From positions 62,001-126,000 of the forward strand of contig WHVD01000140.1 of NCBI GenBank assembly GCA_015178975.1: a stretch of 64,000 nucleotides of DNA, written 5' to 3'. Position 1 is the stretch's first letter, and each line of letters starts with the position of its first letter. The notes below the pieces were generated by a model. The model was not told the DNA's origin. It made no database searches and saw only the letters and a program-made list of their open reading frames with translations. This document shows, one piece after another, positions 38,701 to 59,421 of this stretch. This stretch comes from Hysterangium stoloniferum (taxonomy: Eukaryota > Basidiomycota > Agaricomycetes > Hysterangiales > Hysterangiaceae). Position numbers and translations under genes: made by a program.

Positions 38701-39172
38701 CCTGGTGAGGATCCAAAGAAAATGTAAAACTCCCACCCAATCAAAGGAATATGAGAAAGAAGAAAGGAAGTTCCCACCAAACATGAACATGGAACAGAAA
38801 GAAAATCCTTGGGAGCTCCCACCAAATGTAGAAAAAAACTAAATGTGAACCACAACAAAGGGATGTGAATCATTCTTAAGAGAAGGGGGCCAAAATGATC
38901 TAGGAGAAGAAAGGATAGCATAAATGGGGGAAGAGGGAAGGGAATAGTATGGAGAATGAACTTGACCAGAGTAAGCACCTCCTGCAAAATGAATTTAGGT
39001 GCATTGGCATGATCAGGAGGATGAGATGATCCTGACATAATGTGATCCTTTCTTAATTGGCTCAGTTTTGATATTAATAAATGAAGTGGAGCAACCAATG
39101 TGAGTGTCAATGATATCAGAAAGTGAGGGCTCATTATTTGCAGTAAGAATGCTAGTGCAAACAGTATGATAG

Positions 39173-39820
39173 TGTTACAACCCATGTGCTCAGCACACCA
39201 TCAACCCCAATCGGACCTCACGCAAACCTCCAATCACTTGCAAACTGTCAGTGACCCGACTAACCCCATTTAGCACATCTCTTGTTCCCAATTGGTATTT
39301 TCCATCTGCCCTTTCTATACAACTAGTTTACACCTCTTTCCACCTCCATAGTAGTCTATGTCCATATTTGTAATGTTCCATCTATCGGTCTCTGTCCTTG
39401 CATCACTCTATATGTAGTTCCACCTTCTCCATTAGTATTTTCCTTTGTTCTGTTTTTGTTCAGATAAGCACCAGATTTCCGTATATATGCTGCTCATGTA
39501 TTGTAGTATTAGGACAATCAGAATATTGACTCAGAACACTTGTATACCTCTCTCATAGTCCCGCTCTAAGGATCCCGCTCCCACCTTTGCTTGCACTCAC
39601 TCACTCTCGGTCTCTGACCTCCTCCTGACACACTACTATCCTTTGGCATCCAATCAGTGACTTACCAAGAGGACTATACAACAGGATTAGTTTTCTGCCT
39701 GCCCGAAATTTAAGGACATCCAACAGTAACTTGTGAGGGTGCAGCACACAAGCTGAAGCCAAGTCCTTTGGTTTGGTCTCTGTCGGTCTTCTGACATCAG
39801 TCACTTTTCTGTTCTTAACA
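39173..39820 (+). repeat. 5' LTR of the decayed chromovirus
   Basis: 648 bp, TG...CA ends. The conserved block (in reverse) lies near 39740-39772. It pairs with 46929-47543. Confidence 0.92.
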
Positions 39821-39930
39821 GTATCTTCTGATTTCATACTCGCATTTTCTATCAATCATGCCTCTGAGGAAGAAAGATGTTAAGCCAAGTGGCAAAGCAG
39901 AATCTTCCACCCATCAGTCTCCATTCCTGT

Positions 39931-43859: not shown

Positions 43860-45723
43860 GACTCCAACACTCTCTGAATTCGAGTTTTACAGCATAAACA
43901 TGACCACCTGATCTCAGGACATTTCAGTATCAATAAGACTATTGGACTTATCCGAAGAGAATATACATGGCTGTTACAACCCGTTCCCAGATGTTTCAAT
44001 ATCTGACTTCTGATCTCCGACTACGGAACATCATAGTTACTGTATCTTCCGCATTCTTCCCTTGTTCCACATTTGGTAATTTGTCCGTTGACAAGTATTC
44101 ACTCGTTTGTCTATTGTATTCCCGTTTTGGAATATTGTCTCCCCGATATGTCTTATTGTATTTCTGTTTTAGAAATACTCCTATTTCTGTCTTATTATGG
44201 TCTCAGTTTGTAGTACAATAATGAGAAGACTTACATTAATTTCCACGAATTTGTACTTTACCTTAGATCTGATATCGACTTAGTTTCTTATTCCCTCTTC
44301 CGTCTTTCTGTATGCTTGATATTCGGAACTCTTTGGAACTCTGAATATCTGTATCTTCCATCGTAAGTCTCACTGCTGAAATTAAGGACTTTGAGCATTT
44401 GCGTAGAGGTGCAGCACATATGTAAGCTGAAGCCAATGTCCTGACCCTATCCGGTAGTTCCCGACTTCCTGGTGACTTTCTGATAGTTTCCGAATAAGTT
44501 CCCAACACGGCACTTAACAATGGCCTAGTCTCCAAGATTTTGTCAAGCATTATTGTAAATCATGCACCAACTGTGCACATTCCAAATCAAGACATCACAA
44601 ACCATATGGCCTACTCAAACAACTCCCAATACTGGAAAAACCCTGGAATTCAATATCAATGGATTTCATCGAACATCTAATGGCATCTGATGGCCATACC
44701 ACAATTCTCATTGTTGTGGATTGGCTTACCAAGCAAAGTATTTTCATTCCAACTTATGATACAGTAACATCCATACAGCTAACCAAATTGTTCATTACTC
44801 ATGTATTTTCCAAGCATGGCATTCCATCACATGTCACTTCCGATCATGGATCCGAGTTTCTCTCTCACTTTTTTAGGTCACTCAGAAAAGCACTTGACAT
44901 GAAACTCCATTTCACTTCCAGCTACCACCTGGAAGGCGATGGACAAACTGAACACACTAACCAAACATTGGAACAGTATATCCAAATCTATTGTAACTAT
45001 CAACAAGACAATTGGAAATCACTTCTACTGCTTGCTGAATTTGCATATAACAATGCCCCAAATGCTACTACTGGCATTTCACCTTTCTTCACAAATAAGG
45101 GCTACAACCCAAGCATTGCTATCTGACCCGGAATACAATCTCACTTCAACCTGTGCTCAGGACTTTGTCACCAATCTCAATGAGCTACACCAAGAACTTT
45201 GAAAGAACATCATATCTGCCCAAGAACACTACCAATGCTCTGCAGACAAAAATAAGCTGCCACCCCCTGAATTCAAGATCAGTGACCAAGTATTTGTCAA
45301 AGCCAAGTTCTTCTGAATGTAAGTACAGTACTTAGGACCTTTTGAAATTATTGCACAAGCTGGCATGCTCTCTTGGATGTTTCAGCTCCCCAAGAATATG
45401 CAAGCAGTACACCTGGTATTTCATGTTTCAATGCTGGAACCTCATGTTGCTAACACTATACCAGAACACATACAACCTCCACCTCCACCTGTGGTTATTG
45501 ATGGGGAACCCGAATTCAAGATATTGGAAATCCTAGATTCAAAGATTGATAATCACCAATGTACCTGCAAACTACTCTAATTTGTCAAATGGACAGGTTA
45601 TGAAGGTACTGATGAAGAAACCTCCTGGATCCTGGCTACAGAACTTGGGAACGTGTCAGACATCATTAAAGATTTTCACCAAGTATATCTGAACAAACCT
45701 GGACCCCTGTCATCCCTCTAACC
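43860..45723 (+). pseudogene. Integrase and chromodomain relic
   Basis: The HHCC zinc region starts near 43880 and is split by the solo LTR at 43972-44519. It resumes HYCKSCTNCAHSKS. The catalytic core (SMDFIEHL, TSDHGSEF, LEGDGQTEHTNQTLEQ) follows, with D, D and E in place. The C-terminal chromodomain (EFKILEILDSKI...VKWTGYEGTDEETSW) ends at about 45721. Confidence 0.88.
43972..44519 (-). mobile_element. Solo LTR in the integrase relic, target duplication ATGGC
   Basis: Begins TGTTACAACCCG and ends GGCACTTAACA. Perfect repeats ATGGC lie at 43967-43971 and 44520-44524. Removing one repeat and the LTR restores the integrase frame (EYTWP...). It is the reverse-orientation relative of 59422-60008. 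Confidence 0.92.
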
Positions 45724-45846
45724 TACAGCATCCCAACATTTTCCGACACTCATAGTTTTGTATTCTGTCTTTTCAAGTTGTTTTCCAATGCTCTCTGCAT
45801 TTTCTTTCAAGTTTTCAAAAAAAAAAAAAATTATTAGAAAATTAAT

Positions 45847-46748
45847 CTACTGAAGGGTTTCTCCCGGTACCACTCCCTCTTCAATCTCCTCAGAGCCCCC
45901 CATCTCTGCCATCTCCTCTGACTCTGACTCATCACCGTCGGCATCCACCCCACCAGCAACCCCACCCTGGATACTGCATGCTCTCAAAAAGGAGCTGGCC
46001 TGTGCAGTCAAAACCTCCAGCGATCTTCATATCACACGCCTGTCGAATCTCGCAGATGTCACATGTTCCTTGACCTGTGCCAGGGTATCACTCATAATCC
46101 CGAATAGTCAGTTTTGCTCCTCAAGAGTGTCAGTAAGATGCTCCAGGAGGCCCTCTGACATCCCATTGGTGGCTGGCCATGTACACCCAAGTTTCAAATT
46201 GGTGCACTCTGCACAAGTGCACCCTTGGCCTCCGACCTGGCAATGGCATGTTCAGTTGTGCAAAGCACACCAAATGCACCTGTTTTCGGGTCCCACTTTG
46301 GGGGCCTGACATGTTTTCTACTCGACAATATTAGTAGGCTAAACAAAAAAAAAGAAAATCACTCACCTTTGGGGACGACAGTCCCACCTCTGGTTCCTCC
46401 AACTCATCCTCTCCTTTGGAGGACGAGATGCTTGGGGCCTTACGCTACCAAGTTGTTAGCACTCAGTGGTCCTTATATTTGGGACACCTACCTTCCTCAC
46501 CTCAGCCTCAGCCTTCTCTTGCTTTTCCTTCACAAGTGGCAACTGCTGCCCTCCAATATGCATCCTCCTCTGCCTTTTTTCACTCCTCCCTCTTCCTTCA
46601 TTCCTCCTCAGCCCTCTCAGCAGCCACCAGCAATTCAGCATCCCTCCTTGCCTCCTCCTCTTCTCATAAATGATGCGCCTCCCTTTCTTGTACACAACGT
46701 CGCAAGTCATTTAGACTTGGCTGGTGGGTCCTGAGGGCTGGAAGTCAT
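45847..46748 (-). pseudogene. Decayed antisense accessory gene (Zn-cluster protein) of the relic chromovirus
   Basis: It lies between pol and the 3' LTR, opposite to gag-pol, exactly like the gene at 51432-52417 in the young element. An E/A/R-rich coiled-coil stretch lies near 46520-46640. An intron with a GTAGGTGTCCCAAAT start and TAG end matches intron 1 of the young copy. The exon RKAPSISSSKGEDELEEPEV matches its exon 2. A C-x2-C-x6-C-x10-C-x2-C-x6-C array follows, with one internal stop (likely CGA to TGA), then a helical segment and an acidic tail ending at 45847. Frameshifts and stops make it non-functional. Confidence 0.7.
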
Positions 46749-46928
46749 CCTGTTGTTCAATTGACATGGTGGATAAAGGTTAAGACACAAAGATGCCCTG
46801 GTAACCTTATATAAGCTTTTTTCGGGACCACCAGATCTTCCGATTTCTTGACACATCAGCTAATTTGCTTGACATGTACATTTTTCATTTCTTGGCCTAC
46901 ATGGGACTTCGGCCATATGGGGAGATAC

Positions 46929-47543
46929 TGTTACGACCCATGCACTTGGCACACCGTCGGCCCTGATCAGACCTCATGCAAACCTCCAATTGCTTGCAAA
47001 CTGTCAGTGACCCAACTAACCCCATTTAGCACATCCATTGTTCCTGATTGGTATTTTCCGTCTGCCCTGTCTATACAACCAGTTTATGCCTCTTTCTGCT
47101 TCCCTAGTAGTCTACGTCCAGATTTGTAATGTTCCATCTATCAGTCTCCGTCCTCGCGTCACTCTATATGTAGTTCCACCTTCTCCATTAGTATTTTCCT
47201 TTGTTTTGTTTTTGTTCGGATAAGCACCAGATTTCTGTATATATGCTGCTTATGTATCGTAGTATTAGGACAATCAGAATATCAACTCAGAACACTTGTA
47301 TACCTCTCTCATAGTCCCGCTCTCGCTCACTCTCAGTCTCCAACCTCACAACCCACTACTATTCTTTGGCATCTGATCAGCAACTTACTGAGAGGAGTAT
47401 ACGACAGGATTAGTTTTCCACCTGCCCAAAATTTAAGGACATCTGACAGTAACCTGTGAGAGTGCACCACACAAGCTGAAGCCAAGTCCTTCTGTTCAGT
47501 CTCTGTCAGTCTTCTGACATCAGTCACTTTTCTGTTCTTAACA
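46929..47543 (+). repeat. 3' LTR of the decayed chromovirus
   Basis: 615 bp, matching 39173-39820 apart from small deletions. The conserved block is near 47458-47490 in reverse. It is followed by the GATAG duplication. Confidence 0.92.
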
Positions 47544-47916
47544 GATAGGAAGGATCCTGCTTAATTGCCATGAAGGCTTCTATGGCTTTCACCATGGCAG
47601 ATGTCTGAAAATCAGCATGAACAGCCTTCCAGGATGCCAATCCAGAGCCTGGAGTTGAGGAGAAATGTGAGAATAGATGAATAAGGCCGCCTATCCATCT
47701 TCTGTGACCTCATCTGCAGGGACAACAGCACCCAGGAAACACATCTTCATTGCTCTCTTTCACTCATAGTAGTTGTCCTCAACAAGGAGAGGAGCACTAG
47801 AGAAGATGGAGGTAAGACCAGAGGACATGATGTTGGATGGAAGGGTTCAGGAAGTGTGTTAAGATCTAAGGTCTAAAGATGAAAAGGGAATGAACCTGGG
47901 GGGGTGTAATGGATTT

Positions 47917-48684: not shown

Positions 48685-49434
48685 TGTTAGGATACGTACA
48701 GGGCAGGTTTCCAGAGAAACCCACAGGATATCTGGTAGGACTTGGCGTCAGCTTATAGGCTGTGCCCTCGCTAGATCATGTTGTCCAATTTCAGATGGAT
48801 GGACGGGAATCCCGGGGAGTCCAGGCAGGGGTCGTGGGTCGAGGGGTCATAGGTCGGAGGTCGTGGGATGTGAGTCGAGATTGATGTGAGAGATAGATGC
48901 GCCAGAGCCTGTGGGCTCTGACTAGTGTGAGCGGTGTGATTCAAGTAGGGTTTTAGAGCGGAATATGTATTAGATTACTGGGGGGAATCTAAGCCGATTT
49001 TCTGACTGGATTGTATGTACAACATCTGCCAGTTTAAATAGACGGTGGAGTGAATGTCATACCAAATCCAGTAATGATGAAATGAAATGAGCAAAACATA
49101 AAATGGGAATAGTAAACACCAATTTGGTGTTAGGAACGGGACGGAATGGAGCAGAGTCCGAATAGTGACAAATCATAAACCATAATGGGAAACGGAGTGG
49201 GAGCGGAGTCCGAATCGTGACAGGTCATTTGAGCGTGGGATGAGGTCGGAAATAGACAGAGATGGAGTCCGGTGAGTATTCCGGTGACTGAAACACAACG
49301 TAACAAGGACAAACGTAGACGAGTCTGATGTACGGAGTCCGGTGGGAATTCCAGTAGACTGATAATGGGTGCGTATAGGGCGCGGGTGCATATAAGTTAG
49401 TGCCCAGAGTCCGGCAGGATTTCTGGTCGTAACA
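48685..49434 (+). mobile_element. Solo LTR with target duplication GGTTC
   Basis: Begins TGTTAGGATACG and ends CTGGTCGTAACA. Perfect repeats GGTTC lie at 48680-48684 and 49435-49439. The empty site, with a single GAACC on this strand, survives in the opposite palindrome arm near 62340. It is closely related to the LTRs of the young chromovirus. Confidence 0.93.
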
Positions 49435-50395
49435 GGTTCAAAAGAACTATGTGTAACTCTTTTAGCAAATAATCAACTATTCCTTGAGAATAAGGGCTGG
49501 AAGCTGAGTATATATGTGCAGTAACTTGGCAGAGATTTGATATAAGGCTTTGCTTTCTTGTATGTTTATTTGTTACTACATATTAATAGATATTTAACAA
49601 GGAGTTAAATATTTTATTAATAGAGAAGATAATTTGTGTCGGATTTGTTTGTGTGCTTGTACTTGATTAATTCACTAACTTAAGGTATGGGCCTTGAACA
49701 ATCTAAGTGTTGGCAGGGATTTCAGTAAGGAGACTTGTTAGGTTTACTATGTATTTAATAAGCCTAAGGGTAGCTATGAGGCTGATGGAACTTAGATGAT
49801 TAGCTAAGTTCAAGAGTTGTCAGGAACCAGACAACCCGCTGGCCTCTGGGCCCCCAGACCCCGTCCTGCATGCTCCCGACCCTCTATATTGTATAGTTAC
49901 AACTGGAGTTCCTGCCAGAGCCTGCACATCAACTTGTTTATGCCTGACTCTCTGTATGCACCCACCCTATCTGTACCCAACTCTCTATACCCACTACACA
50001 ACCCACCAGGACCCGGACTCTGCCCTATATACACCCGACTCTCTGTATCTCACGGACCAGTCACCGGACTCCGACCGGACTTCCCGGAACCCCTCTAACA
50101 GAACATAGAACCCTGCTCCCGTTATGGTCAAACGGTCTGTCATGTGTCTCATGTACCAGTCATCAGACTCCACCGGACTCCGAACTCCGAACTCCACCCT
50201 ATATCCACCCGACACTCTGTATCTCATGGACCAGTCACTGGACCCCAACCGGACTCCCCGGAACCCCTCTAACAGAGCCCCATTCCCGTTATGGTCTAAT
50301 GACCTGTCATGATTCATTCTCTGCTCCCGTTCTGTTCCATCCCTAATACCTAGTTTGGTATTTACTTGTTTCATTTTATGTTTAATAGTTCTGCC

Positions 50396-51222
50396 TGTTA
50401 GGATACACACACAGGCCGGGTTTCCGGAGAAACCTGCGGGATATCCGGTAGGACTTGGCTTCAGCTTATAGGCTGCGCCCTCACTAGATCGTGTTGTCCA
50501 ATTTCAAACGGACGGACGGGGATCCCGGGGAGTCCGGGCGGGGTTCGTGGGTCATAGGTCGTAAGTCGAAGGTCGTGGGTCATGAGTCGTGAGTCGAGTT
50601 GGTTGAGAGAGATAGATGCGCCGGAGCCCGTGGGCTCCGACTAGTGCGAGCGATGTGAATCGAGTAAGGTTTTAGAGCGGAAAATATTATTAGATTACTG
50701 GGGGGAATCTAAGCTAATTTTCTGACTGGATTGTATGTACAACATCTGCCAGTTTATATAGACCGTGGAATGCATGACATACCAAATCCAGTAATAATGA
50801 AACGAAAACTAACAAAACATGAAACGGGAATAGTAAACACCAAATTGGTGTTAGGAACGGAACGGAACGGAGCGGAGTCCGAATTGTGACAAAGCATAAC
50901 CCAGAACGGGAAATGGAGCGGGAGCGGAGTCCTAAATCGTGACAGGTCATTTGACTAAAACGGGAACGGGGCTCGATTAGAGCGGTGACGGGATTCTAAG
51001 CGGGGACCGGTGACTGATGCGTGGGACGAAGACGGACATAGACAGAGACGGAGTCCGGGGGAAGTCCGGTGACTGATATGTATCGTAATGAGGTCGAACG
51101 TAACGAGTCTTGACATAACGGAGTCCGGGCGGGAAATCCCATAAACAGATGATTGGTGCTTGTAGTGCGTGGGGGCGTACGGGTTAGTGCCCGGAGTCCG
51201 GCGGGATTGTCCCGTCGTAACA
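50396..51222 (-). repeat. 3' LTR of the young chromovirus
   Basis: 827 bp with TGTTA...TAACA ends. The conserved block GACTTGGCTTCAGCTTATAGGCTGCGCCC is near 50452. Confidence 0.95.
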
Positions 51223-51225
51223 GTA

Positions 51226-51235
51226 TCCTCCCTTT
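51226..51235 (-). promoter_or_regulatory. Polypurine tract
   Basis: On the minus strand AAAGGGAGGA lies three bases before the 3' LTR, where the plus-strand primer of reverse transcription is expected. Confidence 0.65.
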
Positions 51236-51372
51236 ATGCCGAAGTCCCAAAGAGGCTCTAGACCTAAATAAGGTTCTTGTCGGCTATGCGCATGTGTCAA
51301 AAGTCATGTCAGTTACACGTATGTGTCAAAGAGTCATGTGATCTGGAAGGTAAGGTTCAAATGCAACAAGCC

Positions 51373-51382
51373 TATATAAAAA
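51373..51382 (+). promoter_or_regulatory. TATA box of the antisense accessory gene
   Basis: TATATAAAAA lies 50 bp before the ATG at 51432 and is followed by a C/T-rich leader. It lies outside the LTR, so the gene appears to have its own promoter. Confidence 0.55.
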
Positions 51383-51431
51383 TTTGAAAAATTGAAATTT
51401 CTTCTTCTTCATTACCCCCATCTTCATCACT

Positions 51432-52417
51432 ATGGGACCAAAACCAACACCATGCAAGCCAATGCCTATAGCAGGGCCCTCCACGGGCACTCCGTATCGG
51501 GCGCCTTGGACCGCGGCCCAATTGTTGGCGTGGCGAGAAGAGCAGCGCCAGCTTCGTGAAGCAGCAGAGAGAGAGGCGAGGGAGGCTGAGGAGGCCCTGG
51601 ACAGAGAGTACCAGGAAGCGTTGGCTGCAGAGGAAGAGGCCGCGAGGGAGAGGGAACGTGAGGCGGAGGAGGCTGCGCGAGTGGCCGTGGAGAACGCCCG
51701 GGTGGCTGCAGAGAAAGCCCGGTTGGCCACGGAGAGGGCCGCCATTGTTGCGGGAAAAGTAAGTCCCAAATTTCACTTGTCGACTTTTACTGACTTGTGA
51801 TTTTCAGCGCAAAGCGACAGAGGTGGAGTCCGAGTCCAAGGGGGAGCCAGAGAGCCCCCAAAAGGTAGGCCTCATGTCCGTGGAACACCCGCAGAAACTG
51901 ACCATATCAACAGAAGGCAAGGAAGGCGGCGCCAGTCCGTCTTCCGACGTGGAACAAGCCGCGGTGTTCCAGTTGCAACGACCGGAACACGGAATGCAAC
52001 CGAAAGGCCGGCCGGGGGCCGGGATGTTACCAATGCATGCACCTCAAGGTGAGGTGCTCGCTTGTGCACGAGCAGGCCACGGGGTCCGGGACGTGAGACA
52101 TAAGCGGAACGGACGGGTTGTCCAGGTTGGATGAGGTCCTTGGACGGATCGCCGAGGGCATCGAGGCCCAAAACGAGTTGCTCCGGAAGAGCAACAAGGT
52201 CCACATAGTGGTGGCGAAGGAGCTGTGCAGACTCCGCGAGGAATTTTGGAAATTCCTGGCAGAGTATGGCGGCTATGTTTATGAGGAGCCGCAAGTCGGG
52301 AGTTCCGAGGATGCCGGATCAGATGAGGATGGGGTTGACGTGGAGGTCACGGAGCTTCCTGAGGAAGTAGCTGAGGCGGCGGGGAAAAAGGACAGCCCCA
52401 TAGAAGTAGATGAATAA
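51432..52417 (+). CDS. Antisense accessory protein: coiled coil plus Zn2Cys6-like cluster
   Basis: This gene lies opposite to gag-pol, between the end of pol (52628) and the 3' LTR. Exons are 51432-51758, 51808-51864, 51914-52092 and 52126-52417. The first two introns are both 49 nt with good GT-AG ends, and all phases agree, giving 284 residues. Exon 1 gives a Pro-rich start and then a long Glu/Ala/Arg coiled coil (about residues 30-105). Exon 3 gives a basic stretch and six cysteines spaced C-x2-C-x6-C-x9-C-x2-C-x6-C (51965-52060), the spacing of fungal Zn(II)2Cys6 domains, with KVRC at the end. Exon 4 gives another amphipathic helix (LDEVLGRIAEGIEAQNELL) and an acidic C-terminus. A DNA- or RNA-binding accessory role is inferred. 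The third intron is only 33 nt; without it the frame meets TGA at 52094. Confidence 0.72.
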
Positions 52418-52627
52418 TATAATAGAAATAATAAAACTTGATAATAATTTGAACATAAAAGTAAAGCGTGAAAACATAAAAAAATAAAAGTCAAAGCCAA
52501 AGTCCGCGGAGAGTCCGCTTAAAGACTTGACAAGACATGTCAGAACCTGTAAAAGCAAAGAGAGACATAGGGTGACAGGGAATAATGAAAATGAGTCCAA
52601 ACGTAACACGGGGTCCGCGGAGTGTGG

Positions 52628-53776
52628 TCAGAGAGAAGATAATGGTCCAGGTTTGAGCGGGTAAGCTGTATGAAAGTCAGTAACGATTTCCATGGCATTA
52701 CCGAGTTCCGTGGCCAAAATCCATGAGGTTTCTTCATCGGTGCCCTCGTAACCCGCCCACTTGACCAAGTAAAGCAGTTTACAAGTGCGTCGACGCTTGT
52801 CTATTTTTGAATCTAAAATCTGTGAGATTTCAAACTCGGGTTCTCCATCAATGACGACAGGAGGAGGCGGAGATTGCACGCGATCCGGGATAGTGTTAGC
52901 AGTACAAGGTTCAAGCATAGAAACATGAAATACTGGGTGTACCGCACGCATGCTATCCGGAAGCCGTAGGGTCCAAGAAACTGAACCTACTTGTGCGATA
53001 ATTTCAAACGGACCTAAATATTTTTCAGCAAGCTTCTTTGATGGACGGGTAGTCCGGAAGAATTGAGCTTTGACATAAACACGGTCGCCAATTTTGAAGT
53101 TGGGTGGCAGAATCTGGTATTTGTCTGCTGAATGCTGATATTGCTCTTGGGTGGAGGTTATTGCAGTCCGGAGTTCCTCGTGGAGCTCGTGGAGGTCCGT
53201 GGTGAACTCTTGAGCACGAACAGAGGCGAGATTTCGTTCTGGATGTACTGTAATATTTGGATTATATCCTTTATTTGCAAAGAACGGGGAAACACCAGTA
53301 GTGGCCGAGGGTGCATTGTTGTAAGCAAACTCTGCAAGTGGTAACAAGGTTTTCCAATTGTCCTGTTGGTAGTTGCAATATACGCGGAGGTATTGTTCCA
53401 ATGTCTGGTTGACGCGTTCGGTTTGTCCGTCACCTTCTGGGTGATGTCCGGACGTGAAATGTAATGTCATGTCCAAGGATTTTCCGAGGGATCTAAAGAA
53501 GTGAGACACGAACTCTGATCCTCTATCAGAAGTCACGTGGGACGGAACTCCGTGCTTGGAAAATACGTGGATAATGAAAAGTTCCGCTAACTGCACGGAC
53601 GTAATTGTATCATAAGTAGGGATGAATATACCTTGTTTTGAGAATCTGTCAACAATGACTAGAATAGCAGAAAAGCCTTCGGAATCTGGTAGGTGTTCAA
53701 TGAAATCCATAGATATAGAATTCCACGGGTGTTCCGGTACCGGGAGTTGTTTCAAAAGGCCGTATGGCTTGTGTCG
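52628..53776 (-). pseudogene. Integrase core and chromodomain of the young chromovirus
   Basis: Same frame as the upstream piece, separated by TAG at 53777-53779. The integrase core shows SMDFIEHL, TSDRGSEF and HPEGDGQTERVNQTLEQ, carrying the three acidic catalytic residues (D, D, E). The C-terminus EFEISQILDSKI...LVKWAGYEGTDEETSW is a chromodomain, which guides integration to marked chromatin in chromoviruses. The frame ends at 52628. Confidence 0.93.
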
Positions 53777-54445
53777 CTAAGATTTCGAGCGGGGACAAGT
53801 AGTGCAAGATTTACAATAGTGCTTAACGAATCCACGGAGTCCGGGCCAAGTATATTCTCTTCTTATTAATGATAGAGTTTTGTTGTACCCAAAATGTCCT
53901 GAGAGTGGATGATCATGTTTGTATTGAAGGATCCTGAGGCGGAGGCCGTTGGAGTCCGGTACATAGATCCTATCGTCAAGTCTAATGAAACCATGTTGAT
54001 CAAGAGACCACCGAGGTTGATCGGGGTCCACGGGATTGTCCAGATGAGCTTTAGTAACTGGGTCTAGCGGAATTGCCGATAGAATATCTTGATGTAACTT
54101 CTCGATATCCATAATGATAATTCCACGGACAATGGGATTGACGAGGAAAGTTGCGTGGACCGATGCGGTAAGTTGTTGATTCGTGAAAATAGGTTTCAGG
54201 TTGTGCAGATTTACCATTGCATAGTTGTTGCTCCCCTCTTTAGGATAGACGTCCCATCGTCTAGTTAAAGCGTTGGGTTTGCCGCCGAGACGGCCGGGTC
54301 GAAAACGGATAATCATGTTGAAGGCGGAGAGATATTCAGACCAGCGGGCCTGCCGGCGGGTCAAGAGTTTTGTGGTAGAAAAGTATTCCAGGTTTTTGTG
54401 ATCTGTTACAACGTCAATAGGAGCTCCTGAACCTTCCAAATAGTG
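53777..54445 (-). pseudogene. RNase H end and integrase zinc region of the young chromovirus
   Basis: Continues the reverse transcriptase frame after the TGA at 54446-54448. It contains TDHKNLEYFSTTKLLTRRQA (RNase H end) and the integrase HHCC zinc region (HDHPLSGHFGYNKT...CKSCTTC), and stops at 53777. Confidence 0.92.
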
Positions 54446-55729
54446 TCACCACGCTTTGAAAGCTGAAAAGATTGCCAGAAGTTCTTTATCATGAACGTCG
54501 TAGTTGAGCTCTGCTCTGGTGAAAGTCCGGGACAGAAAAGCCACGGGGTGAACTTCTCCATTGGAGTCCTGGATAGAGAGAATGGCTCCAAGTGCATAGT
54601 CGGAGGCGTCCGTTTCAACAATGAGCGGGAAGTCCGGTTTCCAATGCGACAGAATAGGAGCTGTAGAAAAAGAATTTTTTAAAAGATTGAAAGCTTTTTG
54701 ACACTTATCATTAAAGTTCCACAGAGTACCCTTACACGTAAGATGGGTAAGGGGTACCGTGATGTCAGAATATCCACGGATAAAACATCTGTAAAAATTG
54801 GCAAAGCCGAGGAAGGATTGTATATCTTTAACTTTTCGGGGTTCGGGCCAGTCTTTGATGACTTGCACTTTAGTTTCGTCCATGCGGAGTCCATCGGGTC
54901 CCATCATGAAACCTAGGTATTCCACGGAGTCCGTGTCAAAAGTACATTTTTTACCATTTGCAAATAAACCATGTTGCCTGAGCCTCTGGAGAACTTCACG
55001 GACTTGTTTGTCGTGTTCCGCGGGATTCTCGGAGTAGATAAGAATGTCGTCCAAGTAAACAATGACGCATACATCGAGCATGTCGGAGAAAATGTCGTTG
55101 ATAAAACGCTGAAAAACAGACGGGGCATTAGTGAGTCCAAAAGGGATGACCAACCACTCGAAGGCCCCATAGCGGGTTCTAAAAGTGGTTTTCCATTCGT
55201 CGCCCACGGCAATCTGGACCAAATGATAGGCGTGCTTGAGATCTATTTTGGTGTAAATCTGGGCATTCCGCAGAGCATCGAGCAGGTCAGATATAAGTGG
55301 GAGTGGATATTTGTCCTTTTTGGTGACAGCATTGAGTCCTCTAAAATCAACACATAGTCGAAGGGATCCATCCTTTTTTCTGACAAACAGAACAGGTGCT
55401 CCAAAAGGAGACTTTGAGGGTCGAATAAAACCTATGGACAAATGTTCATCCAGGAAATCACGGATTGCGGATAGTTCCGTGGATGAGAGTGGGTAAATAT
55501 GTCCTAGGGGTGGCTGGGTGCCATCTTCAAGATCGATTTTTAAGTTGTATTCTCTATGAGGCGGAAGCCGGTCAGCTTTTCGCTTGCTAAAAACATCCGT
55601 GAAGTCATGATATTTCTCCGGGACGCCTTCTAGGTCAGCGGCTTGCTCAGATTCAGATACCGGGGTTGAAAAACGTCCAGTTGCTTCATCAATTTTTAAG
55701 TTGATAGTGAACGCCTGGGACCCATCCAT
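54446..55729 (-). pseudogene. Reverse transcriptase and RNase H of the young chromovirus
   Basis: Open for 427 codons. The motifs [36 protein letters not shown] and VIVYLDDILIYS (catalytic YLDD) are intact. The RNase H start IVETDASDYALGAILS and ELNYDVHDKELLAIFSAFKAW follow, where the frame ends at TGA (54446-54448). At the upstream junction (about 55740) one T is missing relative to the decayed copy, separating it from the protease frame. Confidence 0.93.
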
Positions 55730-57642
55730 TTTTGAAGCCCTAATAAAGCTGCAGCATTAATCAGAGAAATAGACGGAGGTGCCATGGGTTCTGGGGAAGC
55801 TATGGGTGCCATAGGGATCACAGGAGTCCTCGAGACTGCAGGTGCCGGGAAGGCCATGGGTGCCGTGGAGGCCGAGACAGGCGCAGTTTCCTCGGTCACC
55901 GCGGGAGTCCGGAATGTTATACTGTTAGCTATCCAGTCAATCAATGGATTGTAGCGGGTAAGCCAGTTATGTCCTAGGACCACCGAGCAACTTGAGTCTA
56001 ACTGGGTCACATAGAAAGTGACCAATTGAGATGTTCCACAAGGGAAATTGATGGGTAAATCACAAGCTTGGGTAACAACCGAATTACTTGTGCCATCGAA
56101 GAGGCGGAGAGTGATGGGATTTATCGAATAAGTTGACAAAGAATTTTTTTGCGTGAATTTTGTATCTAAAAAACAATGAGTCGAGCCGGAATCTATAAGA
56201 GCTGAAAAAACGAATTTCGGAATCATATTAGACATAAGTTTAACGAAAAATGAATCAGAATGTGAAAGAGCGGATGCGTTGAGGCGAGTGAACTCTTGAA
56301 TGCGCGGAGAGGCAATGCAACCCCTAACCCGCACGGAGTCCGTGGGGTTGCTTACTCTTTTTTCGAATCGGCAGCCGGTTTGTCCTTCGACGGGGTTTCC
56401 GTGGAGGCTTTGGCTGATCGACCCTTTGAAGAGTTTGCTTTTGCCAGCGGATATTCTGGGACTCGATGACCGGGTTTCCCGCACAAGAGAGAGGTTGTTG
56501 TCCATACGACGTTGTCTTTCTTGTGGAGTCAATTTGCCATCGGGTCCGAGTTTGCCTGAGAGGTCGGGTTTTCCGGCTTGCTTGCTGGACTGTTGACCCT
56601 TGTTGTTGTCCTTATTGTCCTTATTGTTGTTGTTGTTGTTTGAAGACTTTTTATCGTTCTTCTTGTCAGATTGCGAGGAGTTCTGGTTGCTGGTTGATGA
56701 ATTGTTGTTATTGTTTTTGTCCTTGGACTTGTTTACTTTGTCCGCGGATGTCTCGCGGGCAACTTCCGCACGACGTTCCCAATAACGTGCATCCACGTTT
56801 TGAGCTTTGAGCCGCATACGGGACAGGGTTTTTGGCTTGCCATCTTCTCCTTTTGAGACTTCGTCTTTAAGGCGGGACGGCAGACCGGTGTAGAATTGGT
56901 GGCGGAGAGCGGGATCGCCCCACTGACAACGAGCTGCAAGATTATTGAATTGGACGATGTAGTCCGTGATGTGCTGCGTGTCCTTCATATGAAGATTTGT
57001 GAGACTATTCTCGGCTTCTCCTGTCGGGTCATACGGGCCGAAGTTGGTTTCAAGCTCCTCAACAAACGCCTCCCAATTTTCAAGCCAGAGTGGCTCTTCC
57101 TCGGATATTCCGCTAAAAGCCGGTTCGAACCATTTCAACGCAGATCCCGACAAATATGACAGTGCGTAGTTGACTTTTCGGGAGTCCGTGGAGAATGCAG
57201 CGGCACGATCACGGAAGTTGAAGTGACATTGCATGAGGAAAGTAGAGAGTTTGTTTGGGTTGGAACCCGTGAAGGGTTCCGGAGCATTGACTTTTGACCG
57301 TGGAGGTTCTTGTTCCTTTTTCTTTCGTTCTTCGAGCATGTGCGTCATGAATTTATCTATGGTACCTGCTAAAAATTCAGAAGTAGGATCCCCCAAATGC
57401 GGCCGTTGAACAGGCGGAGGATTTTCAGGAGGGATTTCGACACCTTTGCCCTTGTCGGGGGCCACGGAATCGTCCTCGCGCTCGGATTCGTCCAGGTCTT
57501 CCGGGACTTCTTTGATGCGGGCTTCTTCCATGGGTTCCGACTGGTTCGCAAGCGTCTGACTGGTATACAGAGTTAACGGGGAATGAAGAGTCGACGGTCC
57601 AGGTATTGATGACTGTGCGCGTGTACTTCTTCTTGGTGGCAT
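55696..57642 (-). pseudogene. gag-protease of the young chromovirus, fused by frameshift
   Basis: The start is the ATG at 57642 (MPPRRSTRAQ), not the upstream TTG. The capsid region (NAPEPFTGSNPNKLSTFLMQC...FEELETNFGPYD) is followed by a Lys/Asn/Ser-rich linker. Near 56490 the frame shifts where the zinc knuckle should be, so CGKPGHRVPE is found in another frame and two of the four ligands are changed. The frame then enters the protease directly (LIDSGSTHCFLD with the catalytic DSG; SCSVVLGHNWLTRYNPLIDW). In the other frame the original gag ends at TAA 56352-56354 after a run of six A. Confidence 0.9.
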
Positions 57643-57678
57643 AATGAAAACAATCTGCAAGTATTAGTCATAAAATAC

Positions 57679-58526
57679 TGTTAGGATACACACACAGGCC
57701 GGGTTTCCAGAGAAACCCGTGGGATATCCGGAGAAACCCGCGGGATATCTGGTAGGACTTGGCTTCAGCTTATAGGCTGCACCCTCGCTAGATCGTGTTG
57801 TCCAATTTCAAACGGACGGACGGGGATCCCGGGGAGTCCGGGCGGGGTTCGTGGGTCGTAGGTCGTAAGTCGAAGGTCGTGGGTCATGAGTCGTGAGTCG
57901 AGTTGGTTGAGAGAGATAGATGCGCCGGAGCCCGTGGGCTCCGACTAGTGCAAGCGATGTGAATCGAGTAAGGTTTTAGAGCGGAAAATATTATTAGATT
58001 ACTGGGGGGAATCTAAGCTAATTTTCTGACTGGATTGTATGTACAACATCTGCCAGTTTATATAGACTGTGGAATGCATGACATACCAAATCCAGTAATA
58101 ACGAAATGAAAACTAACAAAACATGAAACGGGAATAGTAAACACCAAATTGGTGTTAGGAACGGAACGGAACGGAGCGGAGTCCGAATCGTGACAAAGCA
58201 TAACCCATAACGGGAAACGGAGCGGGAGCGGAGTCCTAAATTGTGACAGGTCATTTGACTAAAACGGGAACGGGGCTCGATTAGAGCGGTGATGGGATTC
58301 TAAGCGGGGACTGGTGACTGATGCGTGGGACGAAGACGGACATAGACAGAGACGGAGTCCGGGGGAAGTCCAGTGACTGATATGTATCGTAATGAGGTCG
58401 AACGTAACGAGTCTTGACATAATGGAGTCCGGGCGGGAAATCCTATAAACAGACGATTGGTGCTTGTAGCGCGTGGGGGCGTACGGGTTAGTGCCCGGAG
58501 TCCGGCAGGATTGTCCGGTCGTAACA
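57679..58526 (-). repeat. 5' LTR of the young chromovirus
   Basis: 848 bp. It carries one extra 21-bp tandem unit (around 57700-57745) compared with the 3' LTR. Internal to it, on the element strand, GTATT...AATAC forms a short inverted repeat where the primer site would be; no tRNA match was recognised. Confidence 0.94.
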
Positions 58527-59421
58527 CTGCCCCTCATTAATACCAGATTTGGTATTATTACATTTCAAAGTCTATATAAGTCTCCTATATTCATGTACTT
58601 AGAATCCAGTTTCAATCTCAAACAAGTTTGACCTTCGAACAAGTTACACCCCTGATCCAGTCTCTAGTCCTCTTGTCTGTCTGCACGCTCGATTCCTCGA
58701 ACTCCCATGAGAACTCCAGAATATACATCTCCTTGTATGCATTCTGTCAGTTTGAAATATGGACACCCAAATGAGTGTACGAGGCGCAGCCCATAAGCTG
58801 AAGCCAAGTCCATCTCAGCCATACCACCACACCTACTTCTGGTAATTATTCTAATACCACATTCCTTGTACTAATATCTCTGGAACTTTCCCTGGACTTA
58901 TTACCTGGGGAGTCCATGGGACAATTCCCAGAAGAAAGTGTGTGTTTGGAATTAATTACTGGAAACCTCCGTGGGACTTCCTCGGAGTTTATCACTGTGT
59001 TCAGAACTTAACAAGAGTGCTGACAAAGAGTTCAAGATTCTGCAAGTGTAGGTTCTTGCAGTTAGTATATCAGACTAAGGCTATTATTGTCCTTAGGATG
59101 ATGAGATAAGCTCAAAGGCTGATGCAGTAAAATTGTGTGTGATATGTAAGTTCTTTTATTGTGGAATTTTGGCCCTCCTTATATCCATTTTCATAACTAA
59201 ATATTTAACTATTTTATTATTTTATGAGATCATTATTTGGATAATAATGACCTTATATTTAACTTATTTCTTACTCTTTATTTATCTTATGACTCCAATG
59301 TTTGAGACAAGGGTCCCAATCCTATGCCTGAACTCGAAGGTTCACCAATTTGTTGGGGCCATGATCCTGGGATGTAAGTAAATCAATAACTCATCCATGT
59401 CATTACAGTCACTGACATAAT

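Follow-up and report, generated by a model that had tools for sequence, protein, structure and literature searches.

Retrotransposons of plants and of Botrytis are already known to encode antisense genes in the interval that separates pol from the 3′ LTR. The plant genes, called aORF-3R, include gene23 of Grande and those of RIRE2, Retand (with a TRP28 domain) and PvRetro13, and the accounts given in PMC7264820 and PMC11963269 describe them as kept in most copies, as having their own promoter in Grande, and as suspected nuclear or DNA-binding regulators. In fungi, brtn of the Boty-like Ty3/gypsy elements of Botrytis cinerea (Zhao et al. 2011, Virology 417:248, cited in PMC8365987, PMC7264820 and PMC4227169) is reported to lie antisense to gag-pol between pol and the 3′ LTR (PMC7264820), and Boty carries a chromodomain (PMC4227169). 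The function of antisense genes at this place is described as open (PMC7264820). The gene presented here is predicted to be spliced and to encode a zinc-cluster-like protein, and its candidate DNA-binding cluster makes the role testable.

The 64,000-nt stretch of a Hysterangium stoloniferum contig that we analysed (the window) contains a full-length element on the minus strand (50396-58526), flanked by the 5-nt target duplication CTGCC (50391-50395 and 58527-58531). From its LTRs, this duplication and Pfam matches above the cut-off to gag, RVP_2, RVT_1, RNase H, H2C2, rve and Chromo, the element is a Ty3/gypsy chromovirus, although the copy is interrupted and its gag-pol is split over four open stretches (Table 1). 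Inside it, a gene at 51432-52417 on the plus strand occupies the interval between the end of pol and its chromodomain (52628) and the 3′ LTR (50396-51222), as the first-pass annotation of this DNA had placed it. Like brtn in another chromodomain element, and like the plant genes, it is antisense and lies between pol and the 3′ LTR; by position, orientation and retention in many copies, it fits the aORF-3R class. The plant genes differ in their TRP28 and Smc domains and their host kingdom, with no zinc cluster described in the plant accounts, and the accounts of brtn in the citing papers, through which we compare it, mention neither a zinc cluster nor splicing. The first-pass annotation knew of no antisense gene in fungal Ty3/gypsy elements, a claim which brtn overturns; for fungal elements, the open-licence papers searched yielded no antisense gene with a zinc cluster.

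Table 1. Features of the two chromoviruses and their antisense genes in the window
Feature	Position	Strand	Remarks
Second chromovirus	LTRs at about 39168-39821 and 46924-47544	+	integrase stretches 65-75% identical to the first element
Degenerate antisense gene of second chromovirus	45719..46815	-	same architecture as the gene at 51432-52417
Chromovirus 3′ LTR	50396..51222	-	827 nt; direct repeat with 57679-58526
Four CGGAGTCCG sites (inverted CGG triplets, 3-nt spacer)	50873..51200	.	candidate binding sites in the LTR
Antisense-gene TATA box	51373..51382	+	about 58 nt upstream of the ATG; CTATAT in 39/39 copies
Antisense-gene exon 1	51432..51758	+	ATG at 51432; proline-rich start, then a long Ala/Glu/Arg-rich stretch
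Antisense-gene intron 1	51759..51807	+	49 nt; GTAAGT..CTGAC..CAG
Antisense-gene exon 2	51808..51864	+	57 nt
Antisense-gene intron 2	51865..51913	+	49 nt
Antisense-gene exon 3	51914..52417	+	six-cysteine cluster, second helix-like stretch, acidic tail, stop
Six cysteines, C-x2-C-x6-C-x9-C-x2-C-x6-C	51965..52057	+	39/39 copies; invariant in the 10-sequence cross-group alignment
gag-protease, RT-RNase H, integrase and chromodomain	52628..57660	-	ORFs and Pfam; four open stretches
Chromovirus 5′ LTR	57679..58526	-	direct repeat with 50396-51222

To follow the gene through its own genome, we searched the assembly at the DNA level with the window gene, scored the best 40 of 888 candidates and aligned 39 of them, leaving out L030, which consists of two joined matches. 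These family-1 copies (families and groups are defined here by match identity) match the window best among the candidates and hence form a close sample. The ATG and the TATA box near 51373 were kept in all 39, as were donor 1, acceptor 1 and acceptor 2, and donor 2 was kept in 38; the exception, L034, was dropped from the parsing of splice sites. Among the 38 parsed copies, CTRAY branch sites were always found 18 nt (intron 1) and 16 nt (intron 2) from the intron ends, exon 2 was always 57 nt and intron 2 always 49 nt, and exon 1 measured 327 nt in 32. Among copies with an open spliced frame, intron 1 measured 48, 49 or 50 nt, a variation that agrees with its removal and not with read-through. 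The whole spliced frame was intact in 18 of the 39 copies and would encode 294-297 residues. The separate TATA box and the two 49-nt introns (splice sites kept in 38-39 of 39 copies) thus stand as first annotated, and the acidic tail is likewise present in exon 3. Of the coiled coil proposed for exon 1, the Ala/Glu/Arg-rich stretch is there, but a simple heptad count along it gave no clear hydrophobic register.

The number of exons had to be corrected from four to three, because the third intron of the earlier model stems from a stop codon at 52094 that is present in only some copies. At the proposed donor, 52049, 7 of the 39 copies have GT and the remaining 32 have GC; the acceptor at 52125 reads CAG in 7 of 39, and an alternative donor at 52093 has GT in 9 of the 36 copies compared. 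All 18 intact copies read across 52094 without a break in the frame. In the window copy itself, TGA at 52094-52096 interrupts the frame; CGA stands there in 27 of the 36 copies compared, and the first stop falls at this same residue in 4 of the other 38 copies. A spliced antisense protein gene of three exons, with a predicted product of about 294 residues, is therefore well supported by the copy alignment.

By Nei-Gojobori counts over all pairs of the 39 copies, in which the pairwise counts are not independent, the spliced frame gave a dN/dS of 0.313, far below 1, and held 22 stops over the 39 sequences; for the two remaining plus-strand frames, the values were 1.11 and 1.01, with 166-332 stops. 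Taken by exon, dN/dS was 0.394, 0.196 and 0.283 for exons 1, 2 and 3. For the 36 copies in which pol could be compared (L005, L015, L023 and L030 were skipped), the value was 0.310 for the antisense gene versus 0.191 for the integrase-chromodomain part. When substitutions were placed on the copy tree, dN/dS was 0.318 on internal and 0.406 on terminal branches, and 0.274 and 0.324, respectively, without CpG transitions. Nucleotide diversity in the region just upstream of the ATG (51246-51431) was 0.032, versus 0.110 and 0.087 in the introns and 0.075 in the downstream spacer. Judged by sequence, purifying selection acts on the predicted gene across several groups of elements within this single genome.

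The decay of the antisense-gene copies has a character of its own. CpG transitions made up 438 of 611 terminal-branch substitutions (stops aside) and 16 of 20 stop changes, and this dominance points to cytosine methylation or a RIP-like process.

A second chromovirus in the window carries a degenerate antisense gene as well, on the opposite strand between its pol and 3′ LTR. Reading the sequence, we found TATATAA at about 46807-46814, a candidate ATG at 46767, and then a charged helix-like stretch, an intron-like gap, six cysteines, a helix-like stretch and an acidic tail; the stretch 46111-46251 covers part of this cluster and the beginning of the helix. The spacing is C-x2-C-x6-C-x10-C-x2-C-x6-C. 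BLAST found no significant similarity between the antisense genes of the two elements.

The occurrence of such genes elsewhere in the genome was surveyed with three queries, each examined through its best 150 matches: exon 3 of family 1 (1362 candidates), a 47-residue core of the second element's gene (277 candidates, 47-100% identity) and pol (2024 candidates). When the matches listed for the core and for pol were compared, at least 77 antisense places lay within 2 kb of a pol match. Of these 77, 76 were arranged tail to tail, with a median gap of 533 nt between the matched stretches; the single same-strand pair lies on contig C49. The 73 antisense and 73 pol matches that had no partner among the matches listed say nothing either way. 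At least seven of the listed pairs combine a pol open over at least 1292 aa with a stop-free antisense match in an open frame of 159-170 aa. Elements with a pol open over 1302 aa and an open antisense frame occurred at several places with identical scores (e.g. C1:274957-275208 with C1:275779-275913), which suggests recent amplification.

For comparison across groups, ten exon-3 sequences were aligned, consisting of two family-1 copies (L011 and L073) and eight diverged samples (L075-L082); three further sequences (L071, L072 and L074) contain stops and were therefore not included, and each of them shows the six cysteines. Invariant in the ten were a P, the six C, two G, one K and the motif E-x-Q-N-x-L. 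In addition, splice motifs placed a candidate intron where family 1 has intron 2 in seven of the eight diverged samples, with more than one possible acceptor in some, and L080 had no intron in the stretch examined. The exon before this place ends in S-P-K in the diverged samples and in S-P-Q-K in family 1. The cysteines are thus kept both within and between element groups, a check that the first-pass annotation had proposed together with dN/dS. On this comparison of sequences, the chromovirus lineage in this genome has a predicted antisense gene in the same place and orientation across diverged groups. Three scans of viral contigs found no relatives of the gene. Many hypothetical proteins of Agaricomycete genomes show comparable cysteine patterns, and some of these may be the antisense gene.

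Several copies lie near contig starts, and an association with telomeres was considered and rejected: neither TTAGGG nor CCCTAA occurs three or more times in succession in the loci examined or in the window. Contigs break inside the element at the start of L023 and the end of L024, and the contig start at L029 falls outside the element. We take the position of these copies to be an assembly effect.

Fungal Zn2Cys6 domains follow the pattern C-x2-C-x6-C-x5-12-C-x2-C-x6-8-C. The antisense product has this pattern in all 39 copies and in all ten cross-group sequences, and the exact spacing first annotated for the window, C-x2-C-x6-C-x9-C-x2-C-x6-C, recurs in 39 of 39 copies. In Pfam searches, the whole protein gave no match at E ≤ 1. 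The cluster piece of the window reached 15.7 bits against Zn_clus (PF00172), below the cut-off of 21, and scores elsewhere were 10.2-14.5 bits, all below it. With 20 of the 33 distinct family-1 pieces used for a profile, Zn_clus was matched in 20 of 20 members (best E 0.0099, the one score displayed being below the cut-off); four of five diverged-group samples also matched below the cut-off and the fifth did not match. When exon 3 was searched, DUF5539 ranked above Zn_clus and both were insignificant, and the two halves of the cluster, searched separately in Pfam, matched nothing.

Against 177635 PDB sequences, the cross-group profile had six matches at E ≤ 10, the best at E 0.53 and none significant alone. 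These were PUT3 twice, LEU3, LAC9, C27B12.11c and Pho7, all of which we take to be fungal Zn2Cys6 factors, and the PUT3 match spans cluster, linker and helix. The family-1 profile had no PDB match, and exon 3 of a single copy gave talin-1 and other unrelated chains (best E 0.062) and no zinc-cluster factor. In hhalign comparisons with Zn_clus domains of the same genome (9 of 30 PF00172 loci cut out), the cross-group profile scored 29.2, a value reached by 1 of 200 cysteine-keeping permutations, and for family 1 alone the real score was reached by 3 of 60. Half-by-half scores were mixed; a swapped order of the two halves, hinted at by family 1, was not upheld across groups. A single-sequence AlphaFold model of a 60-residue cluster piece had a pLDDT of 56 and no PDB fold match, and in it two short helices (residues 21-30 and 36-43) lie beside the two C-x2-C pairs.

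The likeness to zinc-cluster factors (PUT3, LEU3, LAC9 and Pho7; PF00172) thus consists of a compatible six-cysteine spacing, an invariant lysine, a following helix-like stretch and an acidic tail. The product differs from them in scoring below the Pfam cut-off, in having 9-10 residues between Cys3 and Cys4 and in being encoded antisense by a mobile element. Classical Zn2Cys6 domains also carry basic DNA-contact residues between the second and third cysteines; this basic run is missing here, since family 1 reads NDRNTE at that place, and the invariant lysine lies in the second half instead. The earlier description of the cluster as Zn2Cys6-like therefore holds in part: an antisense gene with such a cluster is well supported, and a Zn2Cys6-like identity is likely from spacing and profiles, but the relationship to Zn2Cys6 is remote and membership of PF00172 is not established.

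Taken together, we favor the reading that the antisense gene is a third gene of this chromovirus lineage and may encode a DNA-binding regulator of the element, to which we assign a probability of about one half. The TATA promoter just inside the 3′ LTR would drive transcription of the opposite strand, and the predicted transcript would lose two short introns. Its product, of about 294 residues, would present in order a charged stretch, the six-cysteine cluster with its invariant lysine, the helix-like stretch with E-x-Q-N-x-L and the acidic tail. By analogy with fungal zinc-cluster factors, the cluster would bind zinc and DNA, the helices could dimerise, and the acidic tail could recruit the transcription machinery. 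Cluster, linker, helix and acidic tail follow each other in this order in fungal zinc-cluster activators, although nothing in the sequence evidence favors activation over repression. The target might, more speculatively, be the element's own LTR, and gag-pol transcription might then be regulated in trans from an independent promoter, in the manner of retroviral accessory factors. HBZ of HTLV-1, a retrovirus of people, is a bZIP protein. As an antisense-encoded nuclear regulator of an LTR element, as PMC11963269 describes it, HBZ may offer a parallel in its way of working, and we claim no homology between it and the window gene.

The idea of the LTR as target was pursued through CGG triplets. 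The four CGGAGTCCG sites lie upstream of an apparent LTR TATA that we read from the sequence at about 50754-50761 on the minus strand. CGG-N3-CCG occurs six times in the 3′ LTR of the window versus 0.5 expected, and CGG-N5-CCG is raised too (3 versus 0.5 expected). Over 36 LTRs, the N3 spacing averaged 4.1 per LTR and any other spacing from 0 to 13 at most 1.9. The six N3 sites were intact or only CpG-decayed in 33-36 of the 36 LTRs, and the four CGGAGTCCG sites in 34-35. However, both CGG-N3-CCG and CGG-N5-CCG are also enriched within gag-pol, and the LTRs of the second element have no enrichment. The four CGGAGTCCG sites were more variable than the rest of U3 (pi 0.086 versus 0.055). Special conservation of the CGG-N3-CCG sites was not found in U3: the CpG variability was 0.158 inside and 0.167 outside them, and since CpGs in the sites vary like the others of U3, they show no sign of special protection. 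Given the motif in gag-pol, the second LTRs and the variability of the sites, auto-regulation through the LTR is a speculative proposal. The most specific form of the proposal, a lineage-wide spliced antisense zinc-cluster transcription factor that would bind CGG-N3-CCG in its own U3, is accordingly a tentative suggestion and rather doubtful. If such a factor did control its own LTR, the retrotransposon would itself encode a regulator of its activity, and host genes that have similar sites could respond to this regulator too. It would then represent a transposon-borne regulatory circuit based on a host-type fungal factor, and a fungal counterpart of the antisense or trans-acting regulators of retroviruses. 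At 51001 and 51049, LTR copies vary in the spacer and keep CGG and CCG.

Other roles for the product were weighed against that of a regulator. It might assist integration as a nuclear protein that binds DNA or chromatin and would travel with the pre-integration complex or mark targets, alongside the integrase chromodomain. This lineage does have a chromodomain, a cysteine cluster flanked by helix-like stretches would suit a tethering protein, and GENE23 of Grande, an antisense plant relative, is described as nuclear (PMC7264820); an independent promoter on the opposite strand, however, provides no coupling of the protein to particle assembly, and we consider this role unlikely. We hold it similarly improbable that protein or transcript limits the element for copy-number control, either as an LTR repressor or through dsRNA formed with gag-pol mRNA. 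Convergent transcription would yield complementary RNA if either transcript reads through, and a dsRNA role has been raised for the plant antisense ORFs (PMC7264820), but the antisense and pol coding parts end 210 nt apart, and control by RNA alone would not preserve the spliced frame at a dN/dS of 0.31 together with six cysteines.

The remaining explanations concern what the cluster and the frame are. A zinc-binding fold unrelated to Zn2Cys6, serving RNA binding or particle assembly as a second nucleocapsid-like protein, would agree with the remote Zn2Cys6 scores and with an incomplete set of the classical DNA-contact residues. Against it, the order of cluster, linker, helix and acidic tail agrees with zinc-cluster factors, and such factors are the only PDB matches (E ≤ 10) of the cross-group profile, which makes this fold distinctly unlikely. 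That the antisense ORF is a chance product, mirrored from another constraint, we regard as very improbable. A low dN/dS (0.391) was obtained for the minus-strand mirror frame too, but this is because its third positions coincide, and that frame contains 122 stops versus 22 in the spliced frame; moreover, the gene stretch has no overlap with pol, and architecture and intron place are common to diverged groups. The reading as a DNA-binding regulator is the one we retain.

Directly outside the window element, stretches at 49000-49421 are 77-92% like the family-1 LTR and probably represent an older LTR remnant beside the chromovirus. Among the PF00172 loci of this genome, we also noted a gene family with several overlapping or tandem Zn2Cys6-like units. 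It comprises 12 of the 30 loci, some of them overlapping (L042, L052, L054, L057-L059, L063, L065 and L067-L070), is spread over contigs C115, C85, C56, C209, C533, C201, C309 and C550, and reaches five consecutive C-x2-C pairs in L042.
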